A stretch of 64,000 nt of DNA, taken from positions 2,542,001 to 2,606,000 of the forward strand of contig NZ_CP075171.1 of assembly GCF_021379005.1 (NCBI RefSeq), written 5' to 3'. Source of the stretch: Leptodesmis sichuanensis A121 (GTDB lineage: Bacteria > Cyanobacteriota > Cyanobacteriia > Leptolyngbyales > Leptolyngbyaceae). Shown here piece by piece: positions 46,613 to 58,305 of this stretch. A program made the position numbers and the translations under genes. Position 1 is the first letter of the stretch, and every line of letters begins with the position of its first letter. The notes below the pieces were generated by a model. That model had not been told where the DNA came from and ran no database searches. It saw only the letters and a program-made list of their open reading frames with translations.

Positions 46613-47143
46613 ATGCAATCTGCAACTGATCGACCCAAGGCACAAGAGGCCGCCAAAACAAAACCAGCCCATCCCAGTGGCGATCGTCGCTTCAAAACGC
46701 TGGACATGACAATGAAGCGCTTTCAATACAAGCCGGATGCGTTGATTGAAGTGCTGCATAAAGCGCAGGAAGCATTTGGCTACCTGGAAGAAGATGTGTT
46801 GCTGTATATTGCCAGGGGGCTAAAACTGCCACTCAGCAAGGTTTACGGGACGGCCACATTTTATCATTTGTTCTCTCTTAAGCCAGCAGGTGCCCATACC
46901 TGCGTGGTTTGTTTGGGAACAGCCTGTTATGTGAAAGGGAGTGACAAGGTATTGGCAGAACTGGAAAAAGAACTGGGCATTAAAGTTGGCGAAACCACAC
47001 CCGATGGTAAGGTGTCGTTGATGGCGGCTCGCTGCATTGGAGCCTGTGGCATCGCTCCAGCCGTCGTCTTTGATGGCAAGGTAGCCGGAAAACAAGAGCC
47101 AGCGATGGCGTTAGAACATATCAAAGCCTGGGAAACCGAATAG
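46613..47143 (+). CDS. hoxE: Bidirectional [NiFe] hydrogenase diaphorase subunit HoxE
   Basis: A 176-residue subunit related to the 24-kDa (NuoE) protein of complex I. It carries a thioredoxin-fold [2Fe-2S] cluster; ligands are Cys100 and Cys105 (CLGTACY) and Cys141 and Cys145 (CIGACGIAP). The helical N-terminal part PDALIEVLHKAQEAFGYLEED is as in NuoE. In the HoxEFUYH complex it is part of the electron input from NAD(P)H or ferredoxin. It is the first gene of the hox operon; hoxF starts 21 bases after its stop. ATG 46613 follows AAAGGATATCGCG. Confidence 0.96.
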   Translation: MQSATDRPKAQEAAKTKPAHPSGDRRFKTLDMTMKRFQYKPDALIEVLHKAQEAFGYLEEDVLLYIARGLKLPLSKVYGTATFYHLFSLKPAGAHTCVVCLGTACYVKGSDKVLAELEKELGIKVGETTPDGKVSLMAARCIGACGIAPAVVFDGKVAGKQEPAMALEHIKAWETE

Positions 47144-47164: not shown

Positions 47165-48805
47165 ATGGATTTAGCCGATCTGTTGGAAATTGCGGAAACC
47201 CAACGCACGAAACAAAAGCCGACTCGTGTTCACTGTTGCACGTCTACGGGATGTCGGGCGGCCCGATCGCTGGAAGTTTTGCACAACCTGAAGAGCGCCA
47301 CAGAAGCTGCCGGGTTGCAGGATCAGGTGGAAGTGGTCGGAGTCGGATGCAGTGGCTTTTGTGGACGCGGCCCACTGGTGGAAATTGATCCCAAGAATGT
47401 GCTGTACGAAGAGGTAAAGCCAGAGGATGCGGCCAGCATCATTGACACCTTGAAGGGGGGGACAGCGACGGCTACCCAGGGCGATTTAAACCACCCGTTT
47501 TTCTCTCGCCAACTCAAGATAGTTCGGCAACACAGCGGTAAGCTCGATCCCGAAAGTATTGAAGAATATATTGCGGTGGGGGGCTACCGCTCTCTCTACA
47601 AAGCGCTATACGAGATGTCTCCGGCAGAGGTGGTTGAGGAAATTACCAAAAGCGGATTGCGGGGGCGTGGCGGCGGCGGCTATCCCACAGGCTTAAAGTG
47701 GGCGACCGTAGCCAAAATGCCAGGAGATCAAAAGTATGTGATTTGTAATGGAGATGAAGGCGATCCCGGTGCGTTTATGGATCGCAGTGTCTTAGAAAGT
47801 GATCCCCATCTGGTATTGGAAGGGATGGCGATCGCTGGGTATGCAGTGGGTGCTAATCATGGTTTTATTTATGTGCGGGCAGAATATCCCTTAGCTATTC
47901 AACGCTTGCAAAAAGCGATTCAGCAGGCAAAGAAATATGGATTGCTGGGAAGCCAGATCTTTGATTCCCATTTCGATTTCAAAGTGGATATTCGCATTGG
48001 TGCCGGAGCGTTTGTCTGTGGTGAAGAAACGGCATTGATTCAATCGATCGAAGGGGGGCGAGGTAATCCCAGAACTCGCCCTCCCTATCCTGCTCAGTCC
48101 GGCCTCTGGGAATGTCCTACCCTGATCAATAATGTGGAATCTTTTGCCAATATCACTGCCATTATTCGGGAAGGTTCCGAGTGGTATGCCAGCATCGGTA
48201 CCGAGAAAAGTAAAGGTACGAAAATCTTTGCGCTGACTGGCAAAATCCGCAATAACGGCCTGATTGAAGTGCCAATGGGAATTACGCTACGGGAAATTGT
48301 GGAAGAGATGGGCGGAGGCGTTCCCGATGGCGAAGTCAAAGCGGTGCAAACGGGTGGCCCTTCCGGGGGTTGCATTCCGGCTTCACTGTTGGATACCCCC
48401 GTGGATTACGATTCCCTGATGGCGATCGGCTCTATGATGGGTTCCGGCGGCATGGTCGTGATGGATCAGACCACCAACATGGTGGAAGTTGCCCAGTTTT
48501 ACATGGAGTTCTGCCGGGGCGAAAGTTGCGGCAAATGTATTCCCTGCCGTGCCGGAACCGTTCAACTCTACGGTATGCTCACCCGCTTGCTGAAGAAGCA
48601 AGCCACCCAGGCAGATTTAGAGAAGTTAAAAGACCTCTGCTACATGGTCAAAGAAACCAGTCTCTGCGGCCTGGGAATGAGCGCTCCCAATCCTGTTCTC
48701 AGTACCTTACGTTATTTCACTGAAGAGTATGAAGCCTTACTCCAACCTCCTGCCTACCTGAATGGCAAAGTTACTGCTGGCAGTGTCGAAAACTCGGAGC
48801 TTTGA
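47165..48805 (+). CDS. hoxF: Bidirectional hydrogenase diaphorase subunit HoxF
   Basis: A 546-residue NuoF-like flavoprotein. The N-terminal domain has a [2Fe-2S] pattern HCCTSTGC and [10 protein letters not shown]. Then come the NADH and FMN sites, [16 protein letters not shown] and [20 protein letters not shown], a SLBB domain, and a [4Fe-4S] motif [16 protein letters not shown] with the fourth Cys in [13 protein letters not shown]. It oxidises or reduces NAD(H) and passes electrons to HoxU and on to the hydrogenase half. GGAGAAGG stands before ATG 47165. Its stop region overlaps a small AAAACTC/GGAGCTTT inverted repeat. Confidence 0.97.
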
Positions 48806-48891: not shown

Positions 48892-49608
48892 ATGTCAGTC
48901 AAGACGCTCAAAATTGACAACAAAGATATTGCGATCGAAGAAGGTGCAACTATCCTGCAAGCGGCGCAGGAAAATGGCATCCCGATTCCTACTTTGTGTC
49001 ACCTGGAAGGGGTGACGGATGTGGGGGCCTGTCGCCTGTGCCTGGTTGAAATTAAGGGCACGAATCGGCTACTACCAGCTTGTGTAACAGAAGTCGCCGA
49101 AGGCATGGAAATTCAGACTAACACTGAAAAATTGCAGGAATACCGCAAGATGACGGTGGAGTTGCTGTTCTCTGAAGGCAACCATATTTGTGCCGTATGC
49201 GTGGCGAACGGTAACTGTGAACTGCAGGATGTGGCAATTCAGGTAGGCATGGATCATACCCGGTTTACCTATCGCTTTCCCGATCGCGGTGTGGATATGT
49301 CCCACGAACTATTCGGCATTGACCACAACCGTTGCATTCTCTGTACCCGCTGTGTACGGGTGTGTGACGAGATCGAAGGTGCCCACGTTTGGGATGTGGC
49401 CATGCGAGGAGCGGCCTGCTATATCGTCTCTGGCCTTAACCAACCCTGGGGTGAAGTTGATGCCTGTACCTCCTGTGGTAAATGTGTGGATGCCTGCCCG
49501 ACTGGATCCATTTTCAGGAAGGGCGAAACCACAGCCGAGAAAGAACGCGATCGGGCCAAGTTGGAATTCTTGGTGAACGCGAGAGAGAAGCACCAATGGA
49601 CGAGGTAG
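48892..49608 (+). CDS. hoxU: Bidirectional hydrogenase diaphorase subunit HoxU
   Basis: A 238-residue iron-sulfur subunit like the N-terminal part of NuoG. A ferredoxin-like [2Fe-2S] motif reads CHLEGVTDVGACRLCLVEI with its last ligand in LLPACVTEV. Next are the His/Cys motif HICAVCVANGNCELQ and two [4Fe-4S] motifs, CILCTRCVRVCDEI and CTSCGKCVDACPTG. It wires electrons between the flavin in HoxF and the hydrogenase HoxYH. Start ATG 48892 follows CAAGGAGAACCT, a strong ribosome site. HoxY starts 23 bases after its stop. Confidence 0.97.
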   Translation: MSVKTLKIDNKDIAIEEGATILQAAQENGIPIPTLCHLEGVTDVGACRLCLVEIKGTNRLLPACVTEVAEGMEIQTNTEKLQEYRKMTVELLFSEGNHICAVCVANGNCELQDVAIQVGMDHTRFTYRFPDRGVDMSHELFGIDHNRCILCTRCVRVCDEIEGAHVWDVAMRGAACYIVSGLNQPWGEVDACTSCGKCVDACPTGSIFRKGETTAEKERDRAKLEFLVNAREKHQWTR

Positions 49609-49631: not shown

Positions 49632-50180
49632 ATGAGCAAAATCAAATTCGCCACCGTATGGTTAGCCGGATGTTCAGGTTGTCACATGTCGTTTCTGGAT
49701 TTGGACGAGTGGTTGATTGACTTGGCGCAATCTGTGGATGTCGTGTTCAGTCCGGTGGGCAGTGACATTAAGGACTATCCAGAAGAAGTGGATGTGTGCC
49801 TGGTGGAAGGGGGGGTGGCCAATGAAGAAAACTTAGAATTGGCAATCAAACTGCGACAGCACACCAAGGTTGTGATTTCGTTTGGCGATTGTGCGGTGAC
49901 AGCGAACGTTCCGGCGATGCGAAATATGCAGGGAGGAGCCGATGGCGTATTGAAACGTGCTTATTTAGAACTGGCAGATACCGGAAAACAACTGCCCCAC
50001 GAACCGGGAATTGTCCCAGAGTTACTCGATCGCGTCATTCCCTTGCACGAAGTCATCCCTGTTGATATCTTTATGCCCGGTTGCCCACCTCCTGCTGAGC
50101 GGATCAAGGCAACGATCGAACCCCTTCTGAGAGGGGAACATCCAAATATGCAGGGGCGGGAGATGATCAAGTTTGGTTAG
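49632..50180 (+). CDS. hoxY: Bidirectional [NiFe] hydrogenase small subunit HoxY
   Basis: A 182-residue small subunit holding the proximal [4Fe-4S] cluster: CSGCHMSFLD (Cys near 14 and 17), GDCAVTANVPAMRN and GCPPPAERI. It lacks the medial and distal clusters of uptake hydrogenases, as expected for HoxY. I chose ATG 49632 because it gives the standard MSKIKFATVWLAGCSGCH start and has GAGG upstream; ATG 49596 would overlap hoxU and adds unconserved residues. It is followed by two small AAAACTC-type hairpins and then by the CBS-CP12 gene rather than directly by hoxH. Confidence 0.96.
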   Translation: MSKIKFATVWLAGCSGCHMSFLDLDEWLIDLAQSVDVVFSPVGSDIKDYPEEVDVCLVEGGVANEENLELAIKLRQHTKVVISFGDCAVTANVPAMRNMQGGADGVLKRAYLELADTGKQLPHEPGIVPELLDRVIPLHEVIPVDIFMPGCPPPAERIKATIEPLLRGEHPNMQGREMIKFG

Positions 50181-50186
50181 TGTCTT

Positions 50187-50252
50187 AAAACTCGGAGTTT
50201 TTCCTCGGAATCTTAGTCAACTCCAACTCCACAACTTAAAACTTCGAGTTTT
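50187..50252 (+). repeat. Paired AAAACT hairpins between hoxY and the CBS-CP12 gene
   Basis: AAAACTCGGAGTTTT (50187-50202) and AAAACTTCGAGTTTT (50238-50252) are two small near-perfect palindromes; the first continues into TTCC and could act as a weak terminator. Related forms are at the hoxF end (48789-48803) and before hoxU (48840-48855). They may be processing or attenuation sites inside the operon. Confidence 0.5.
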
Positions 50253-50310: not shown

Positions 50311-50922
50311 ATGATGAAAGCTTCGGAAATTATGACAAAGGATGTGGTGACGATTCGCGGGTCGGCGACGGTGGCGGAGGCGATCGAACTGATGAAGATC
50401 AGAGGGTATCATACCCTGGTGGTCGAGCGCCGTCATGAGCAGGATGCCTATGGAATCGTGACAGAGAGCGATATTGTCGGTAAGGTAGCGGCCTTTGGTA
50501 AGGATCCGAAACGGATGCGGGTCTATGAAATTATGACGAAACCCTGTATTTCGATTAATCCTGATCTGGGTGTGGAATATGTGGCGCGGCTATTTATTAA
50601 CACAGGCATTCATAGTGCTCCAGTGATTCAGGGGAAACTCCTGGGTCTGGTGACGATGAGTGATATCTTGCATAAGAGTGATTTCGTTGAGCAACCGAAA
50701 GAAATTACCTTAAGCAAAGAAATCCAAAAGGCGATCGAAAATGCCAGGGCTGTTTGTGCTGAAAAAGGGGCGGCCTCTAAGGAGTGTGCCGTGGCCTGGG
50801 AAGTCGTGGAAGAGTTACAGGCGGAAGCGTCTCATCAACAAGCAAGGACGCACAAAAGTGCATTTGAAGAATATTGTGAGGAATTTCCCGAAGCCTTAGA
50901 GGCTCGGATGTATGACGTTTAA
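50311..50922 (+). CDS. CBS-CP12 fusion protein within the hox operon
   Basis: A 203-residue fusion. Residues 1-125 are two CBS domains (MKASEIMTKDVVTI, GIVTESDIVGKV, RVYEIMTKPCISI, LGLVTMSDIL), which bind adenine nucleotides in other proteins. Residues 134-203 are a CP12 domain: AIENARAVCAEKGAASKECA with the N-terminal Cys pair (Cys149, Cys159), and the core AWEVVEELQAEASHQ. CP12 inhibits GAPDH and phosphoribulokinase in the dark through disulfides. Here the C-terminal pair is incomplete: YCEEFPEALEARMYDV keeps Cys189, but the place of its partner is Ala198. CBS-CP12 fusions are known in cyanobacteria. Its position between hoxY and hoxH suggests that it reports energy or redox state to hydrogen metabolism or ties it to the Calvin cycle (inference). 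ATG 50311 is preceded by GGAGGAGG. Confidence 0.93.
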   Translation: MMKASEIMTKDVVTIRGSATVAEAIELMKIRGYHTLVVERRHEQDAYGIVTESDIVGKVAAFGKDPKRMRVYEIMTKPCISINPDLGVEYVARLFINTGIHSAPVIQGKLLGLVTMSDILHKSDFVEQPKEITLSKEIQKAIENARAVCAEKGAASKECAVAWEVVEELQAEASHQQARTHKSAFEEYCEEFPEALEARMYDV

Positions 50923-50962: not shown

Positions 50963-52390
50963 ATGTCAAAGACTGTTGTAATTGATCCGGTAACTCGCAT
51001 TGAAGGACATGCTAAAATTTCCGTTTTCTTGAATGATGCGGGCGAAGTGGATAACGCTCGCTTCCACGTAGTGGAATACCGGGGCTTTGAAAAATTCTGC
51101 GAAGGTAGACCGTTTACGGAAATGGCTGGAATCACAGCCCGAATTTGTGGCATTTGTCCAGTCAGCCACCTGCTGGCTTCGGCAAAAACGGGTGACAAGA
51201 TTCTGGCGGTGCAGATTCCCCCAGCGGCTGAAAAATTGCGGCGGTTGATGAATTTGGGGCAACTGACTCAATCCCATGCGCTGTCCTTCTTCCACCTCAG
51301 CAGCCCCGATTTCTTTTTGGGTTGGGATAGTGATCCGGCCAAGCGTAATGTGTTTGGATTGATTGCTGAAAATCCCGATCTTGCCCGTGCCGGAATTCGC
51401 TTGCGGCAGTTTGGTCAGACGGTAATCGAAATCTTAGGCGCGAAAAAGATCCATGCGGCCTGGGCAGTTCCCGGTGGAGTCCGATCGCACCTTTCCGAAG
51501 AAGGGCGGCAATGGATCCGCGATCGCCTGCCCGAATCTTTTGATACGATTACCCTCGGTCTCAACCTGTTCAAAACCATGCTGGACACCCAGTTCAAGGA
51601 TGAGCCTGCCATCTTTGGTGAATTTCCCTCCCTGTTTATGAGTTTGGTCGGCAAAGATGGCGAATGGGAGCACTATGGAGGCCACCTGCGGTTTACTGAT
51701 AGCCAGGGCAATATTGTTGCGGATGGGTTGAGCGAAGACGATTACCATGACTTTATCGGTGAAGCCGTCGAACCCTGGTCGTACCTCAAGTTCCCTTACT
51801 ACAAGCCAATGGGCTATCCAGAGGGGATGTATCGCGTTGGGCCTCTGGCACGACTGAACACCTGCAGTTATATTGGCACGGAAGCAGCCGATCGCGAACT
51901 TCAAGAGTTACGGCAACGGGCAGGCGGAGTCCCCACCTCGTCCTTCCTGTACCACTACGCCCGGTTGATTGAAATCCTTGCCTGTCTGGAGAAGATCCAG
52001 CAATACATGGATGACCCAGATCTGAGCAGCGATCGTATTCGTGCCCATGCAGGAGTCAACCAACTGGAAGCGGTAGGAGTTAGCGAAGCTCCCAGAGGCA
52101 CCCTATTCCACCACTACAACGTGGACGAAAACGGCTTGATTCAAAAGGTGAATTTAATCATTGCTACCGGACAAAACAATCTAGCAATGAACAAGACTGT
52201 CACCCAAATTGCCCAAAATTACATCCACAACAACGACATTTCCGAAGGATTTCTCAACCGGATTGAACACGGGATTCGCTGTTTTGATCCCTGTCTTTCC
52301 TGCTCCACCCATGCCGTTGGCCAAATGCCCCTGCATGTGGAATTAATTGCCCCCGATGGTGCGGTTATCAAAGAAGTTTATCGAAGTTAG
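50963..52390 (+). CDS. hoxH: Bidirectional [NiFe] hydrogenase large subunit HoxH
   Basis: The 475-residue catalytic subunit. The four Cys ligands of the NiFe centre lie in [10 protein letters not shown] (near 62-65) and [10 protein letters not shown] near the C-terminus. After that motif comes a tail ([15 protein letters not shown] and on) that the protease HoxW removes after nickel insertion; hoxW is present at 57865. Together with HoxY it makes or consumes H2 using NAD(P)H or ferredoxin. I chose ATG 50963, with GGGAGGGG close upstream; GTG 50960 is directly before. The hyp maturation genes are not in this window. Next downstream is a palindromic repeat, then adhE. Confidence 0.97.
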
Positions 52391-52748: not shown

Positions 52749-55433
52749 ATGACGAATCAAGTTACAAATACCGGAGAATTGGATGCCCTGATCCAGCGAG
52801 TTCACATTGCTCAGGAAAAATACGCCACGTTTACTCAGGAACAGGTCGATCGCATTTTCAAGAAAGCAGCACTGGCGGCTAACGCGGCTCGCATTCCGCT
52901 AGCAAAACTGGCAGTTGCGGAAACAGGAATGGGGATCGCAGAAGATAAGGTGATCAAAAATCACTTTGCATCGGAGATTATTTACAACAAGTACAAACAC
53001 GAAAAAACCTGCGGGGTGATTGAAGCCGATAAATCCTTCGGCATTCAGCGCATTGCTGAACCTGTGGGGATTCTGGCGGGAATCGTACCGACCACAAATC
53101 CGACTGCGACCACCATCTTTAAAGCGTTGATTGCCTTAAAGACACGCAATGGCATTATCTTTTCTCCCCATCCCCGTGCTAAGGAATGCACTGTTGCCGC
53201 CGCCAAAGTGATCTTAGAAGCCGCGATCGCAGCGGGCGCACCAGAAGACATTATTGGCTGGATTGATGAGCCGACGGTCGCCCTGTCCCAGGCATTGATG
53301 CAAAACAACAACATCAAGCTGATCCTGGCAACGGGTGGCCCCGGTATGGTAAGAGCGGCTTATTCATCCGGTCGTCCGTCGCTGGGTGTGGGTGCCGGAA
53401 ACACACCTGCCATCATTGACTCCAGTGCTCACATTAAGATGGCGGTTTCTTCCATCATCATCAGTAAAACCTTTGATAATGGCATGATCTGTGCCAGCGA
53501 ACAGTCAGTGATTGTACTGGATGATGTGTATGAGCAGGTCAGAGAAGAGTTTCGCGATCGCGGAGCCTATTTTCTGACTCCAGAGGAGCGAGATCGGCTG
53601 AGTCGGGTCTTGATCGTAGACGGTCACTTAAACGCCGATGTGGTAGGTCAACCCGTAGAGCGCATTGCTGCCATGATTGACCTCACCCTACCCCTCCAAA
53701 CCCGATTGCTGATTGCCGAAGTATCTGAGATTGGCAGTGAAGAGCCGTTCTCCTACGAAAAACTTTGTCCGGTGCTGGCGATGTACCGTGCCAGTGATTT
53801 TGCAGATGCGGTGGATAAAGCCAGTCGCCTGGTACTGTTTGGGGGACGAGGACACACGGCGGCGCTCTACACGGATCCCGCCGATCGGGTGCATATTCAC
53901 CAGTTTGAAGATCGGGTACAGACGGCGCGGGTATTGATCAACACACCTTCCTCTCAGGGAGCGATCGGGGATCTGTATAACTTCCGCCTGGATCCATCCT
54001 TGACGTTGGGTTGTGGCACCTGGGGCGGCAACTCGGTGTCTGAAAACGTGGAACCACGCCACTTGCTCAACATCAAAACAGTGGCTGAGCGGCGGGAAAA
54101 TATGCTGTGGTTCCGGGTGCCGCCCAAAATTTACTTCAAGTATGGCGCACTGCCAGTCGCTCTGCGGGAGTTGGCCGACAAAAAACGGGCCTTCATTGTC
54201 ACCGACAAACCAATTTACGAATTGGGAATGACACGGGCGATCGAAGAAGTGCTGGACGAAATCGGTGTGAAGTACGACACCTTTTATGATGTGGAACCCG
54301 ATCCTTCGTTGGATACAGTGAATCGTGGTTTGGAACTAATTCGCACCTTCAACCCGGATGTCATCATTGCCTTTGGGGGTGGTTCCCCCATGGATGCGGC
54401 CAAGATTATCTGGTTGATGTATGAGCATCCTGAAATTGAATTTGAAGGCTTGGCAATGCGGTTTATGGACATCCGCAAGCGGGTTTATGAACTGCCACCT
54501 TTGGGCCAAAAGGCGACGATGGTTGCTATTCCCACCACCTCCGGCACGGGTTCAGAAGTGACTCCCTTTGCTGTGGTCACCGATCGCCGCCACAACATCA
54601 AATATCCCCTGGCGGACTATGCCCTCACCCCCAACATGGCGATCATCGATCCGGAACTGGTGTTGACCATGCCTAAGTCCCTGACGGCTTACGGGGGTGT
54701 GGATGCGCTGGTACACGCGATCGAAGCCTATGTCTCTGTCCTGGCCTCGGAATATACCAACGGTCTGGCACTGGAGGCTATCCGACTGCTGTTCAAATAT
54801 CTACCCAGTGCGTACCACAACGGTAGACAAGATCTGAAAGCACGGGAGAAAGTTCACTATGCCGCGACAATGGCAGGAATGGCTTTTGCCAATGCCTTTC
54901 TCGGGATTTGTCACTCCATGGCGCACCAATTGGGGGCTACCTTCCACATTCCGCATGGACTCGCCAATGCCTTGATGATCTCCCATGTGATTCGCTACAA
55001 CGCCACCGATGCGCCCTTTAAGCAAGCCATCTTTCCCCAATACAAGTATCCCAATGCTAAGTGGCGCTATGCCCGGATTGCTGATTACCTGGGTCTGGGG
55101 GGAGCCACGGAAGCCGAAAAAGTCGATCGTCTGATTGCCGCTGTCGAAGCTCTCAAACGCGACCTGGATATTCCAGGCAGTATCCGGGAATACATGAACG
55201 ACGACACCCTGTTTTATGCCCAGGTCGATCACATGGCGGATCAGGCATTCGACGACCAGTGTACGGGTGCAAATCCGCGCTATCCCCTGATCAGCGACCT
55301 GCGGCAACTCCTGATGGAAGCCTATCATGGGAAACCCCTACCCCCTGTCAACGAGTTGCCCAGTCAGGAAACGGATACTCCGATCGCAGAGTCGCTGCAG
55401 AGAGCACTGGATGATCTAACCGTATCCCTGTAG
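52749..55433 (+). CDS. adhE: Bifunctional acetaldehyde-CoA/alcohol dehydrogenase
   Basis: An 894-residue fusion. Residues 1-440 are a CoA-dependent aldehyde dehydrogenase, with the catalytic Cys in MICASEQSVIV and the nucleotide site in ATGGPGMVRAAYSSG. Residues 455-894 are an iron-dependent alcohol dehydrogenase: FGGGSPMDAAK, TTSGTGSEVTPF and the metal His/Asp residues in GGVDALVHAIEAYVS and GICHSMAHQLGATFHIPHG. It turns acetyl-CoA into ethanol using two NADH. I chose ATG 52749, preceded by AAGGAAGAG; the open frame upstream to 52617 is not conserved. AdhE is found in only part of the cyanobacteria and may have been acquired. Here it directly follows hoxH, so NADH can be disposed of as H2 or ethanol from the same region. 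Confidence 0.96.
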   Translation: MTNQVTNTGELDALIQRVHIAQEKYATFTQEQVDRIFKKAALAANAARIPLAKLAVAETGMGIAEDKVIKNHFASEIIYNKYKHEKTCGVIEADKSFGIQRIAEPVGILAGIVPTTNPTATTIFKALIALKTRNGIIFSPHPRAKECTVAAAKVILEAAIAAGAPEDIIGWIDEPTVALSQALMQNNNIKLILATGGPGMVRAAYSSGRPSLGVGAGNTPAIIDSSAHIKMAVSSIIISKTFDNGMICASEQSVIVLDDVYEQVREEFRDRGAYFLTPEERDRLSRVLIVDGHLNADVVGQPVERIAAMIDLTLPLQTRLLIAEVSEIGSEEPFSYEKLCPVLAMYRASDFADAVDKASRLVLFGGRGHTAALYTDPADRVHIHQFEDRVQTARVLINTPSSQGAIGDLYNFRLDPSLTLGCGTWGGNSVSENVEPRHLLNIKTVAERRENMLWFRVPPKIYFKYGALPVALRELADKKRAFIVTDKPIYELGMTRAIEEVLDEIGVKYDTFYDVEPDPSLDTVNRGLELIRTFNPDVIIAFGGGSPMDAAKIIWLMYEHPEIEFEGLAMRFMDIRKRVYELPPLGQKATMVAIPTTSGTGSEVTPFAVVTDRRHNIKYPLADYALTPNMAIIDPELVLTMPKSLTAYGGVDALVHAIEAYVSVLASEYTNGLALEAIRLLFKYLPSAYHNGRQDLKAREKVHYAATMAGMAFANAFLGICHSMAHQLGATFHIPHGLANALMISHVIRYNATDAPFKQAIFPQYKYPNAKWRYARIADYLGLGGATEAEKVDRLIAAVEALKRDLDIPGSIREYMNDDTLFYAQVDHMADQAFDDQCTGANPRYPLISDLRQLLMEAYHGKPLPPVNELPSQETDTPIAESLQRALDDLTVSL

Positions 55434-55694: not shown

Positions 55695-55881
55695 GAGCTG
55701 GCTCGACTTCCCTTCTCCAGCCGCCCTTACGCACGATTCGCCCCTATCAACTCTGGTGAATTAACCAGTCCTCTAATCTTTAGATTTCCTTCTCCCTTCC
55801 TACCCTTCACTTACCCCCCTTTTCACTATCATAAAAACAGTTTTTCCTTCTATCCTCTGCCTTCTGCCTTCATTGTTTGTT
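55695..55881. other. Pyrimidine-rich leader before the [2Fe-2S]-PAS-SpoIIE cassette
   Basis: A strongly C/T-rich stretch including CTTCTGC-type heptamers reaches up to the start codon of the [2Fe-2S] gene. There is no visible ribosome site before that ATG. It may hold the promoter of the cassette; no specific site can be named. Confidence 0.4.
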
Positions 55882-56154
55882 ATGGCAAAAGAAAACTTAT
55901 TCCTCTGTATGGGATCAGCGTGTCATCAGTTGGGTGTATATGAAGTACTGCCCAAACTGCAGATGTTGATTCAAACTCACAAGCTGGAAGACATTCTGGA
56001 ACTCAAAGGCTCGTTCTGTTTGGAAACTTGTAGTCATGGCATTGTCATGAAGTTTAAAGGTCAGCATTTCTTGAATATCAGTTCTCAGAACATCGAAGAA
56101 AAGTTTACGCAGGAAATTCTTCCAGTCATTAAGGCAAAACTCAGCCATGTCTGA
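55882..56154 (+). CDS. [2Fe-2S] thioredoxin-like ferredoxin protein
   Basis: A 90-residue protein with the NuoE/HoxE-like cluster pattern: Cys9 and Cys14 (CMGSACHQLG), then Cys46 and Cys50 (CLETCSHG). It is a stand-alone version of the thioredoxin-fold [2Fe-2S] domain that ends NADH-dependent hydrogenase subunits. I chose ATG 55882; GTT ATG sequence before it gives no ribosome site. The next gene (PAS protein) overlaps its end by 8 bases, and a SpoIIE-type phosphatase follows. This trio occurs beside [FeFe] hydrogenases of presumed sensory function in clostridia and relatives (from memory). Here it sits between adhE and hoxW and may pass the redox state of the hydrogenase pool to the PAS protein. 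Confidence 0.85.
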   Translation: MAKENLFLCMGSACHQLGVYEVLPKLQMLIQTHKLEDILELKGSFCLETCSHGIVMKFKGQHFLNISSQNIEEKFTQEILPVIKAKLSHV

Positions 56155-56668
56155 CAGTGGTGTCACTCACAATAGCCTCTGGAAGCGGTTGTGGGAATAT
56201 GATCCCAACGGCTTACTTGTTGTTGATCCTGATCTGTATATCCGGGTTGTCAATCCCGCGTTTTGTCGTATGTTTAACGTCGCAATGCCGGATGATGTGT
56301 TGGGTCATCCCGTGCAGACCTTACTGGATGATGTAAACGACTTCAAAAAGGTTTGGCAAGATGACATTGTAATTCAGGGGAAACAGAAAGAGTACCCCCG
56401 GTATGGGTTGTATGTGAGCGAAGTCATTTTTTCCATTGAAGAGGAGGGAATTATTGCCTGCATCATGGTGGATAGGAGTCATGAGTTAGAACGCAAGCGG
56501 GAACTGGAAAAACTGAAGCATGAAACCGTGAAGCAAGTCAATGAAGTGGTAGACAATCAGATGAAAGTGGTTCAGGAAATTGCTGGACTGTTGGGGGAAA
56601 CCACTGCCGAAACAAAAGTCAGTTTACTCAAAATTATTGGCATGTTAGAACGGGAGCCATTTATCTAG
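56147..56668 (+). CDS. PAS domain protein of the hydrogenase-linked cassette
   Basis: A 173-residue protein. A PAS domain covers about residues 10-115 (LWEYDPNGLLVVDPDLYIRV, AFCRMFNVAMPDDVLGHPV). After a short linker, EIAGLLGETTAETKVSLLKI ends the protein; this tail, VVQEIAGLLGETTAETK, is the same as in PAS proteins encoded with [FeFe] hydrogenases in Firmicutes as I remember them. There is no kinase or DNA-binding domain, so the output must go by protein contact, most simply to the SpoIIE-type phosphatase coded 18 bases downstream. Cys residues occur in the PAS part (near residues 39 and 106) and could hold a cofactor, but this cannot be decided by eye. Start ATG 56147 overlaps the upstream gene. 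Confidence 0.85.
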   Translation: MSDSGVTHNSLWKRLWEYDPNGLLVVDPDLYIRVVNPAFCRMFNVAMPDDVLGHPVQTLLDDVNDFKKVWQDDIVIQGKQKEYPRYGLYVSEVIFSIEEEGIIACIMVDRSHELERKRELEKLKHETVKQVNEVVDNQMKVVQEIAGLLGETTAETKVSLLKIIGMLEREPFI

Positions 56669-56686
56669 CGATCGCACAAATTACCT

Positions 56687-57853
56687 ATGCCAGTTGATAG
56701 CTTTCTCGATATCCACACCTCCAGCCTGAACAGAAAAGGTGAAGAATTGTGTGGCGATAAAGTGAAGTATTTGAAAACAGAAAATAAGACTATTATTGTC
56801 CTATCGGATGGGCTGGGAAGTGGGGTGAAGGCTAACATCCTGGCAACCCTGACCACCGAAATTTTATTGAAAATGTTAACGGCGGATATTCCCCTTGTAG
56901 AGGTGCTAAAGACTGTTATTGCAACTCTACCCATCTGCCAGGTACGGAAGATCGCCTATTCTACCTTCACCATTATTGAAATCAATAGTGAAACGAATCG
57001 CTTCAAAGTCATTAATTTTGATAACCCCAATTGCTTCTATTTTCGTCAGGGTAAAGCCGTGAATCTGGAAAGTCATACCGAAGAAATTCTCAACCGCAAG
57101 ATTCACATTGCAAAAGGACAGCTATCCCGGGGAGATTTCTTAGCGGCAGCCAGCGATGGGATTCTCTATGCAGGCATGGGAATCACTCTTAACTTCGGTT
57201 GGGGTTGGGAGAATATTTCTCAATTTATTGAAGAAGTGTTAGCACAAAAATCAAAAACGGCCAGGGAAATTGTTCAGGATGTAATTCAGACAACCCGATC
57301 GCTGTATCAGGGGGAAGTCGGTGATGATGCAACTTTTGTGGGTGTGTATGTCAGAAGTCGAAATCCACTGATGATCTTTACTGGTCCACCGTTGAATGAA
57401 GACACAGACGAGGTTCATATCGATCGTCTGCTCAATTTCCAGGGACGCAAAGTGATCTGTGGGGGAACAACGGGCAACATTGTCGCTAATTACCTGGGGG
57501 AAACGATCGAGATGGATCTGTCCACTATCCGCAAGGAGCTACCCCCGATTGGTATGCTCAGTGCCATTGATCTGGTGACGGAGGGAATCTTAACCATTTC
57601 TAAAGCAACGGAATATATCAAGAATTGCGAGGGTGATCTGAGCCGTCTCAAATTTGATAATAATGGGGCATACTTGCTGGCACGGGAGATCCTGCAGGCT
57701 GATTCAATTCATTTTCTGGTGGGTCAAAGTATCAATGAGTTTTACCAAAATCCCTTACTGCCTAAAAACATTTCAATCCGCCGTAGTTTAATTGAAGATC
57801 TGGTAAAATTTCTGCGGGACAAACAGAAAGAAGTAACGATCGAATATTGTTAA
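56687..57853 (+). CDS. SpoIIE-type protein phosphatase of the hydrogenase-linked cassette
   Basis: A 388-residue soluble PP2C-type Ser/Thr phosphatase. Metal-binding Asp residues are conserved: Asp24 (EELCGDKV), Asp41 (VLSDGLGSGVKAN), Asp157 (AASDGILYAG) and Asp213/214 (VGDDATFVGV). Residues 1-220 form the SpoIIE domain. A second part of about 165 residues follows with VICGGTTGNIVANYLGE; this extension also belongs to the hydrogenase-linked family, and its role is unknown. SpoIIE proteins normally dephosphorylate anti-sigma antagonists; no STAS or anti-sigma gene is in the window, so the target is open. It probably takes input from the upstream PAS and [2Fe-2S] proteins. HoxW starts 11 bases after its stop. 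Confidence 0.88.
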   Translation: MPVDSFLDIHTSSLNRKGEELCGDKVKYLKTENKTIIVLSDGLGSGVKANILATLTTEILLKMLTADIPLVEVLKTVIATLPICQVRKIAYSTFTIIEINSETNRFKVINFDNPNCFYFRQGKAVNLESHTEEILNRKIHIAKGQLSRGDFLAAASDGILYAGMGITLNFGWGWENISQFIEEVLAQKSKTAREIVQDVIQTTRSLYQGEVGDDATFVGVYVRSRNPLMIFTGPPLNEDTDEVHIDRLLNFQGRKVICGGTTGNIVANYLGETIEMDLSTIRKELPPIGMLSAIDLVTEGILTISKATEYIKNCEGDLSRLKFDNNGAYLLAREILQADSIHFLVGQSINEFYQNPLLPKNISIRRSLIEDLVKFLRDKQKEVTIEYC

Positions 57854-57864
57854 GCAAATCTAAA

Positions 57865-58305
57865 ATGAACTATCTGGTCATTGGCTATGGCAACTCCTTA
57901 AGAGGGGATGATGGGGCAGGTCAACGAGTTGCCGAACAGGTTGAGGACTGGCATCTGGACAATGTTCGATCGCTCGCCCTGCACCAACTGACTCCAGAAG
58001 TGGCCGCTGACATTGCCGAGGCCGGAACGGTAATTTTTGTGGATGCCACTTTACCTACGGAGGAGCCGATCACCCAGGTTCAGTTGGTGCCGATTCAGGC
58101 GCAGGACACTCCAACCCACTGGGCCCATTTTCAAGATCCGCGATCGCTCCTGACTCTCACTCAACGGGTCTATGGTACTGTTCCTCCCAGTTGGTGGATC
58201 TTAATTCCTGCAATAGATTTTGAATTTGGTGAGCAGTTTTCTGCTATCACCCAACAGGGAATTAGAGATGCATTAATACAGATTAAAGATTTGCTTAACG
58301 ATTGA
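57865..58305 (+). CDS. hoxW: Hydrogenase maturation protease HoxW
   Basis: A 146-residue endopeptidase of the HyaD/HybD family. It cuts the C-terminal tail of HoxH after nickel has been inserted. Recognition: YGNSLRGDDGAG near the N-terminus (metal-binding acidic residue), TPEVAADIAEAGTVIFVDAT with the second Asp, and the SLLTLTQRVYG and PSWWILIPAIDFEFGE blocks of the HoxW subfamily. Start ATG 57865; a TTG at 57847 is in frame but inside the previous gene. Its distance from hoxH (about 5.5 kb) with adhE and the cassette in between indicates that the whole block is a functional unit for the hydrogenase. Confidence 0.92.
   Translation: MNYLVIGYGNSLRGDDGAGQRVAEQVEDWHLDNVRSLALHQLTPEVAADIAEAGTVIFVDATLPTEEPITQVQLVPIQAQDTPTHWAHFQDPRSLLTLTQRVYGTVPPSWWILIPAIDFEFGEQFSAITQQGIRDALIQIKDLLND

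Follow-up and report, generated by a model that had tools for sequence, protein, structure and literature searches.

The CBS-CP12 gene described here lies in a 64,000-nucleotide stretch of the Leptodesmis sichuanensis A121 contig NZ_CP075171.1 (the window, positions 2,542,001 to 2,606,000), within a run of hydrogenase genes in the order HoxE-HoxF-HoxU-HoxY-CBSCP12-HoxH-AdhE that is carried entirely on the + strand. The gene is set off from its neighbours by 130 bp and about 40 bp, and the features of the locus are as follows, in window coordinates.

46613–47143, + strand: hoxE (Pfam 2Fe-2S_thioredx, 5e-46)
47165–48805, + strand: hoxF (open reading frame; conserved in hox loci)
48892–49608, + strand: hoxU (Pfam Fer2_4, NADH-G_4Fe-4S_3)
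49632–50180, + strand: hoxY, with ATG at 49632 (a longer reading frame from 49482 overlaps hoxU; Pfam Oxidored_q6, 4e-29)
50185–50252, no strand: dispersed repeat of ~66 bp in the gap between hoxY and CBS-CP12, bounded by two AAAACTYNRAGTTTT palindromes (sequence comparison)
50311–50922, + strand: CBS-CP12 gene encoding 203 aa, with CP12 after two CBS motifs (open reading frame and translation; Pfam CBS, CP12)
50314–50673, + strand: CBS pair, residues 2–121, with GxxT/SxxD motifs and invariant Cys79 (Pfam, alignment)
50710–50916, + strand: CP12 domain, residues 134–202, with Cys149, Cys159, core AWEVVEEL, Cys189 and Ala198 (translation, Pfam)
50963–52390, + strand: hoxH (Pfam NiFeSe_Hases, 2e-30; 82% identical to relatives)
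52749–55433, + strand: adhE, a downstream fermentation gene (NCBIfam NF010378, above cut-off)
57862–58305, + strand: hoxW maturation protease (NCBIfam TIGR00072, above cut-off)

The palindrome AAAACTCSGAGTTTT occurs at only nine places in the genome, two of which fall in the hox gap and five in the vicinity of nif. It was considered as an operator shared by hox and nif and dropped, as five of the places align as copies of one ~66 bp repeat, which is also present at loci L316, L317, L319, and L322. Predicted promoters and terminators were not more frequent than in shuffled sequences. Between adhE and hoxW (55873–57853 of the window) lie a small reading frame with no Pfam match, a PAS protein, and a SpoIIE-type phosphatase, a trio that recurs 3′ of hoxH in Planktothrix-like and f2 genomes and is possibly a signalling module for fermentation.

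The CBS-CP12 reading frame opens with an ATG preceded by GGAGGAGG, a good ribosome-binding site, and its product matches two CBS motifs (PF00571, 1.1e-26) and CP12 (PF02672, residues 134–202, 3.2e-29) above the Pfam cut-offs. Both CBS repeats carry the nucleotide-binding GxxT/SxxD motif, as YGIVTESDIV (residues 47–56) and LGLVTMSDIL (residues 111–120), and the CP12 part contains the core AWEVVEELQAEASHQ. The only cysteines of the protein are residues 79, 149, 159, and 189, and residue 198 is alanine. The closest relative in the PDB, by sequence search, is the Microcystis structure 5nmu (2.8e-82), and an AlphaFold model (pLDDT 87, pTM 0.66) has 5npl and 5nmu as its top Foldseek matches. The reading frame is real, and the PDB relative and the fold exclude a chance match. 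The earlier note's description of a fusion between hoxY and hoxH is thus borne out by the reading frame, Pfam, and gene order, as is its reading of the CP12 core and of Cys149, Cys159, Cys189, and Ala198; it had overlooked Cys79, which sits in the second CBS motif (TKPC) and is invariant in an alignment of 39 relatives.

Canonical CP12 binds GAPDH through a C-terminal disulfide loop and PRK through an N-terminal hairpin and the AWD_VEEL core (PMC9406205, PMC3906501). The canonical CP12 proteins compared here, from the same genome (C1:3414120) and from PDB entries 6gfo and 3qv1, share the CP12 core and N-terminal cysteine pair with the hox-linked protein but, unlike it, have no CBS part and possess the C-terminal disulfide that binds GAPDH. 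A canonical CP12 is defined by both cysteine pairs and an AWD_VEE core, and the present protein falls outside this definition with alanine in place of the fourth cysteine and a core reading AWEVVEE. It belongs instead to the CBS-CP12 fusions, having two CBS motifs followed by CP12 and GxxT/SxxD in both repeats. The closest solved relative among them, that of Microcystis aeruginosa (5nmu, 5npl, 5nvd), is about two thirds identical and has the same two-domain architecture and fold, with the N-terminal cysteine pair, AWD_VEEL core, CBS nucleotide motifs, and Cys79 equivalent in common; it retains all four CP12 cysteines, whereas here the fourth is alanine and the gene stands in a hox operon. According to PMC9406205, the Microcystis protein binds AMP, is a hexamer, forms no GAPDH/PRK complex, and slows the activation of PRK.

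By its CBS fusion, its N-terminal pair (Cys149/Cys159), and its incomplete C-terminal pair, the present protein also fits the CP12-N-CBS class (Stanley et al. 2013, following the description in PMC3906501); it differs in retaining Cys189 of the C-terminal pair, which is broken by Ala198. No mention of a hydrogenase link for this class was found in the sources covered. In Synechocystis, glucose catabolism needs the C-terminal cysteine pair of canonical CP12, for which a CBS-CP12 of Synechococcus PCC 7002 is no substitute (PMC9514657), and CBS-CP12 has been predicted by modelling not to bind GAPDH (cited in PMC3906501). For SYNPCC7002_A0199, the literature yielded nothing usable on a hox neighbourhood.

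Three CP12-domain genes are present in the genome: the canonical CP12, the CBS-CP12 at hox, and another CBS-CP12 (C1:5308608-5309159; L208 9109-9708) that has no CP12 cysteines and lies inside a nif cluster, flanked by feoA and the gene of a 4Fe-4S ferredoxin, together with genes for NifE/N-type, NifX-type, DUF269, NifW, ThiF/HesA, HesB, 2Fe-2S ferredoxin, FeoA, and 4Fe-4S ferredoxin proteins. Of 24 cases of the cysteine-less clade to which it belongs, at least 16 are linked to nif, as against 1 of 177 others, and nifH, whole, interrupted, or partial, occurs in 25 of the 26 genomes with this clade.

Cysteine patterns were compared in an alignment of 201 distinct CBS-CP12 and CP12 proteins drawn from a phylum sample and a scan of genome contigs, in which C4 denotes the fourth and last CP12 cysteine (the Ala198 position here) and proteins without it are termed C4-less. 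Cys-Cys-Cys-Ala is the commonest pattern, shown by 82 unlinked proteins and by 17 hox-adjacent ones, and loss of the last cysteine is the majority state of CBS-CP12. The earlier note had singled out the cysteine set of this gene and had proposed scoring the four positions against genomic context. Such scoring shows that hox-linked members do share the loss of C4, which none of 35 keeps, but alanine or serine occupies the position in most unlinked members as well, and Ala198 is therefore ruled out as a mark of hox linkage. C4 is kept in 0 of 34 hox-linked proteins versus 23 of 122 unlinked CBS-CP12s with the N-terminal pair (p 0.004, uncorrected for relatedness).

Loss of C4 also extends to the three CP12 proteins at hox loci that have no CBS part. 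Two of these lie between hoxY and hoxH, with the pattern Ser-Ser-Cys-Ala in one genome (G296) and Cys-Cys-Leu-Ala in another (G170), and the third lies after hoxW and is again Ser-Ser-Cys-Ala (G027); among the other CBS-less CP12s of hox-bearing genomes, C4 is absent in 1 of ~21 (p 0.002). A CP12-only tree offered too few columns to speak to their origin. Two further variants of the fusion were observed. Eleven full-length CBS-CP12s, five of them hox-linked, have a C-terminal WCSG tail in place of the usual end and are scattered over mostly hox-bearing genomes (L158, L177, L186, L189, L095, L030, L133, L155, L170, L193, and L200). At L172, L174, L175, and L184, tandem relatives occur in which one member without a CP12 tail adjoins a short, 151-aa partner with CBS and the CP12 tail only, an arrangement resembling a single CP12 domain divided over two genes.

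HoxH was found in 74 of the 128 non-picocyanobacterial genomes with a CP12 match, and 35 of these 74, in 10 of 21 families, carry a CP12-domain gene at the hox locus, mostly exactly between hoxY and hoxH. This compares with a chance expectation of ~0.5 genomes under a rough uniform model; the hox genomes are related to one another, which makes the family count the safer figure. The 35 cases comprise 31 CBS-CP12 genes beside hoxY and/or hoxH, one after hoxW, and the three CBS-less CP12s. Exact placement between hoxY and hoxH is seen for the fusion in six families and for CBS-less CP12 in two more, and the strand and position seen in L. sichuanensis recur in other genomes. The hox-linked CBS-CP12s do not form one clade (AU p 5e-6; 8 changes in the protein tree), so that the gene either entered the hox site several times or was repeatedly lost from an old linkage. 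In one genome (G385, L199), the locus looks decayed: HoxH is interrupted by a stop codon, HoxF is fragmented, and the CBS-CP12 within the locus is disrupted too. In Anabaena PCC 7120, alr0765 likewise lies between hoxY and hoxH; it falls within the hox expression cluster and is annotated as hypothetical (PMC4915528), and by analogy with Nostocaceae loci we infer that it is a CBS-CP12. No link of CP12 to hox was found in the literature searched, beyond whose reach lay the two papers likeliest to hold one.

The association with Hox extends beyond physical linkage. C4-less CBS-CP12 with the N-terminal pair is present in 57 of 74 Hox-positive versus 10 of 54 Hox-negative genomes (odds ratio 14.8, p 3e-11), or, read by form, Hox is present in 57 of 67 genomes with the C4-less form versus 17 of 61 without it, the C4 classes having been fixed with the first tables already in view and set membership copied by hand. 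Stratification by family leaves the association in place (p 1.5e-8 by genome, 1.2e-4 by genus), and four-cysteine CBS-CP12 has no association with Hox in the 128 genomes (odds ratio 1.2). Among PFOR-positive genomes, the C4-less form occurs in 56 of 69 with Hox and in none of 12 without it, and PFOR-negative genomes show no such association. The presence of nifH explains little of the co-occurrence (odds ratio 2.1), and neither PFOR nor nitrogen fixation is sufficient as its cause. The fusion is absent from 17 non-picocyanobacterial hox genomes, two of which carry in its place a hox-locus CP12 with neither CBS part nor C4, and CBS-CP12 is wholly missing from 12 picocyanobacterial Hox genomes. 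Conversely, HoxH is absent from ten genomes with the C4-less form. In Microcoleus, whose sampled genomes are without HoxH, a C4-less CBS-CP12 is divergent from a gene that we take to be glpX, for the Calvin-cycle fructose/sedoheptulose bisphosphatase, a name given from sequence; Microcoleus-like loci of this arrangement include L065, L099, L113, and L056, among others. The cross-talk between Calvin cycle and H2 metabolism suggested in the earlier note is supported in part, by position, by co-occurrence, and by the shared loss of C4 in hox-linked members. The protein family and class were already known; what is found here is the recurrent tie between C4-less CP12 and Hox.

The reading we favour, although we would put it a little short of an even chance, is that the protein is a nucleotide-gated brake on PRK, co-expressed with hox and lacking the GAPDH-docking disulfide, that keeps the Calvin cycle switched off whenever Hox serves as the electron sink. 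A CP12-N-CBS-type protein would have been drawn into fermentative or transitional metabolism that depends on Hox, with co-expression setting its role: it would be made together with the bidirectional hydrogenase, presumably by co-transcription, and its CBS pair would sense an adenine nucleotide, AMP in the Microcystis homologue. The N-terminal hairpin (Cys149/Cys159 with AWxxVEEL) may keep a PRK-facing surface, so that at high AMP, in a dark or anoxic cell, phosphoribulokinase would be held inactive. A C-terminal disulfide is impossible because of Ala198, which argues against canonical GAPDH binding while the PRK side is kept, and GAPDH would probably remain free for glycolysis towards PFOR, AdhE, and Hox. 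A PRK brake is favoured by the biochemistry of the Microcystis homologue (PMC9406205) and by the failure of the PCC 7002 protein to replace CP12. The domains, motifs, and fold, the linkage and co-occurrence, the Microcoleus glpX neighbour, and the expression cluster of alr0765 count in its favour; hox genomes without the fusion, C4-less genomes without HoxH, the null result in PFOR-negative genomes, the Ser-Ser variants among CBS-less CP12s at hox, and the setting of the classes with the data in view count against it.

The same loci allow a more direct tie, in which the CP12 part docks on HoxYH, or on the HoxEFU diaphorase as an NAD-binding stand-in for GAPDH, and gates or stabilizes the enzyme according to nucleotide level. 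We consider this unlikely, yet the exact hoxY-hoxH position across the six families with the fusion and the two with CBS-less CP12 speaks for it, as do the tracking of Hox by the C4-less form within PFOR-positive genomes and the joint decay of locus and gene in G385. A shared redox switch is not required, because two of the three CBS-less hox-linked CP12s have Ser-Ser at the N-terminal pair; at least some hox-linked members can thus do without the N-terminal disulfide, so that a reading in redox terms alone loses ground and hydrogenase binding stays live. Against hydrogenase binding stand the presence of the same kind of protein beside glpX in hox-less Microcoleus and the many Hox enzymes from which a linked CP12 is absent.

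The protein could also resemble reduced CP12 in binding both PRK and GAPDH weakly, as a general microoxic paralogue whose Cys189 and Cys79 enter other, perhaps intermolecular, disulfides. The tail (FEEYC-PEA-EARxYD) is highly conserved despite having no disulfide of its own, and the invariance of Cys79 points the same way, but the need for the C-terminal cysteine pair in vivo in Synechocystis (PMC9514657) and the modelling cited in PMC3906501, which predicts no GAPDH binding, make such weak dual binding distinctly improbable. Least probable is that the gene is a passenger, whose position between hoxY and hoxH was inherited with no functional tie to the hydrogenase. One family, Nostocaceae-like f7, does make up much of the linked set, but a very slim chance is left to this explanation by linkage in 10 of 21 families, the rejection of a single hox-linked clade, the CBS-less CP12s at the same place, and co-occurrence that holds within families.

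Taken across many cyanobacteria, the comparison of genomes points to a tie of C4-less CP12 to Hox that may serve cross-control of CO2 fixation and H2 metabolism, and the cysteine-less relative in nif clusters suggests that nitrogen fixation is handled on the same principle. A wider reading, which we hold to be doubtful, is that CP12 domains are operon-specific regulators of low-potential electron metabolism, with C4-less members acting on Hox and the cysteine-less nif clade on nitrogenase, the cysteine set being tuned to each setting. If this is true, C4-less members would act on Hox directly or through PRK held off during Hox activity, and redox control would have been given up in some settings with nucleotide sensing kept. 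The choice of electron sink in cyanobacteria, CO2 fixation versus H2, matters to physiology and to biohydrogen engineering alike, and a nucleotide-sensing CP12 that sits inside the hox operon and tracks Hox through evolution would offer a concrete single-gene test of that choice.
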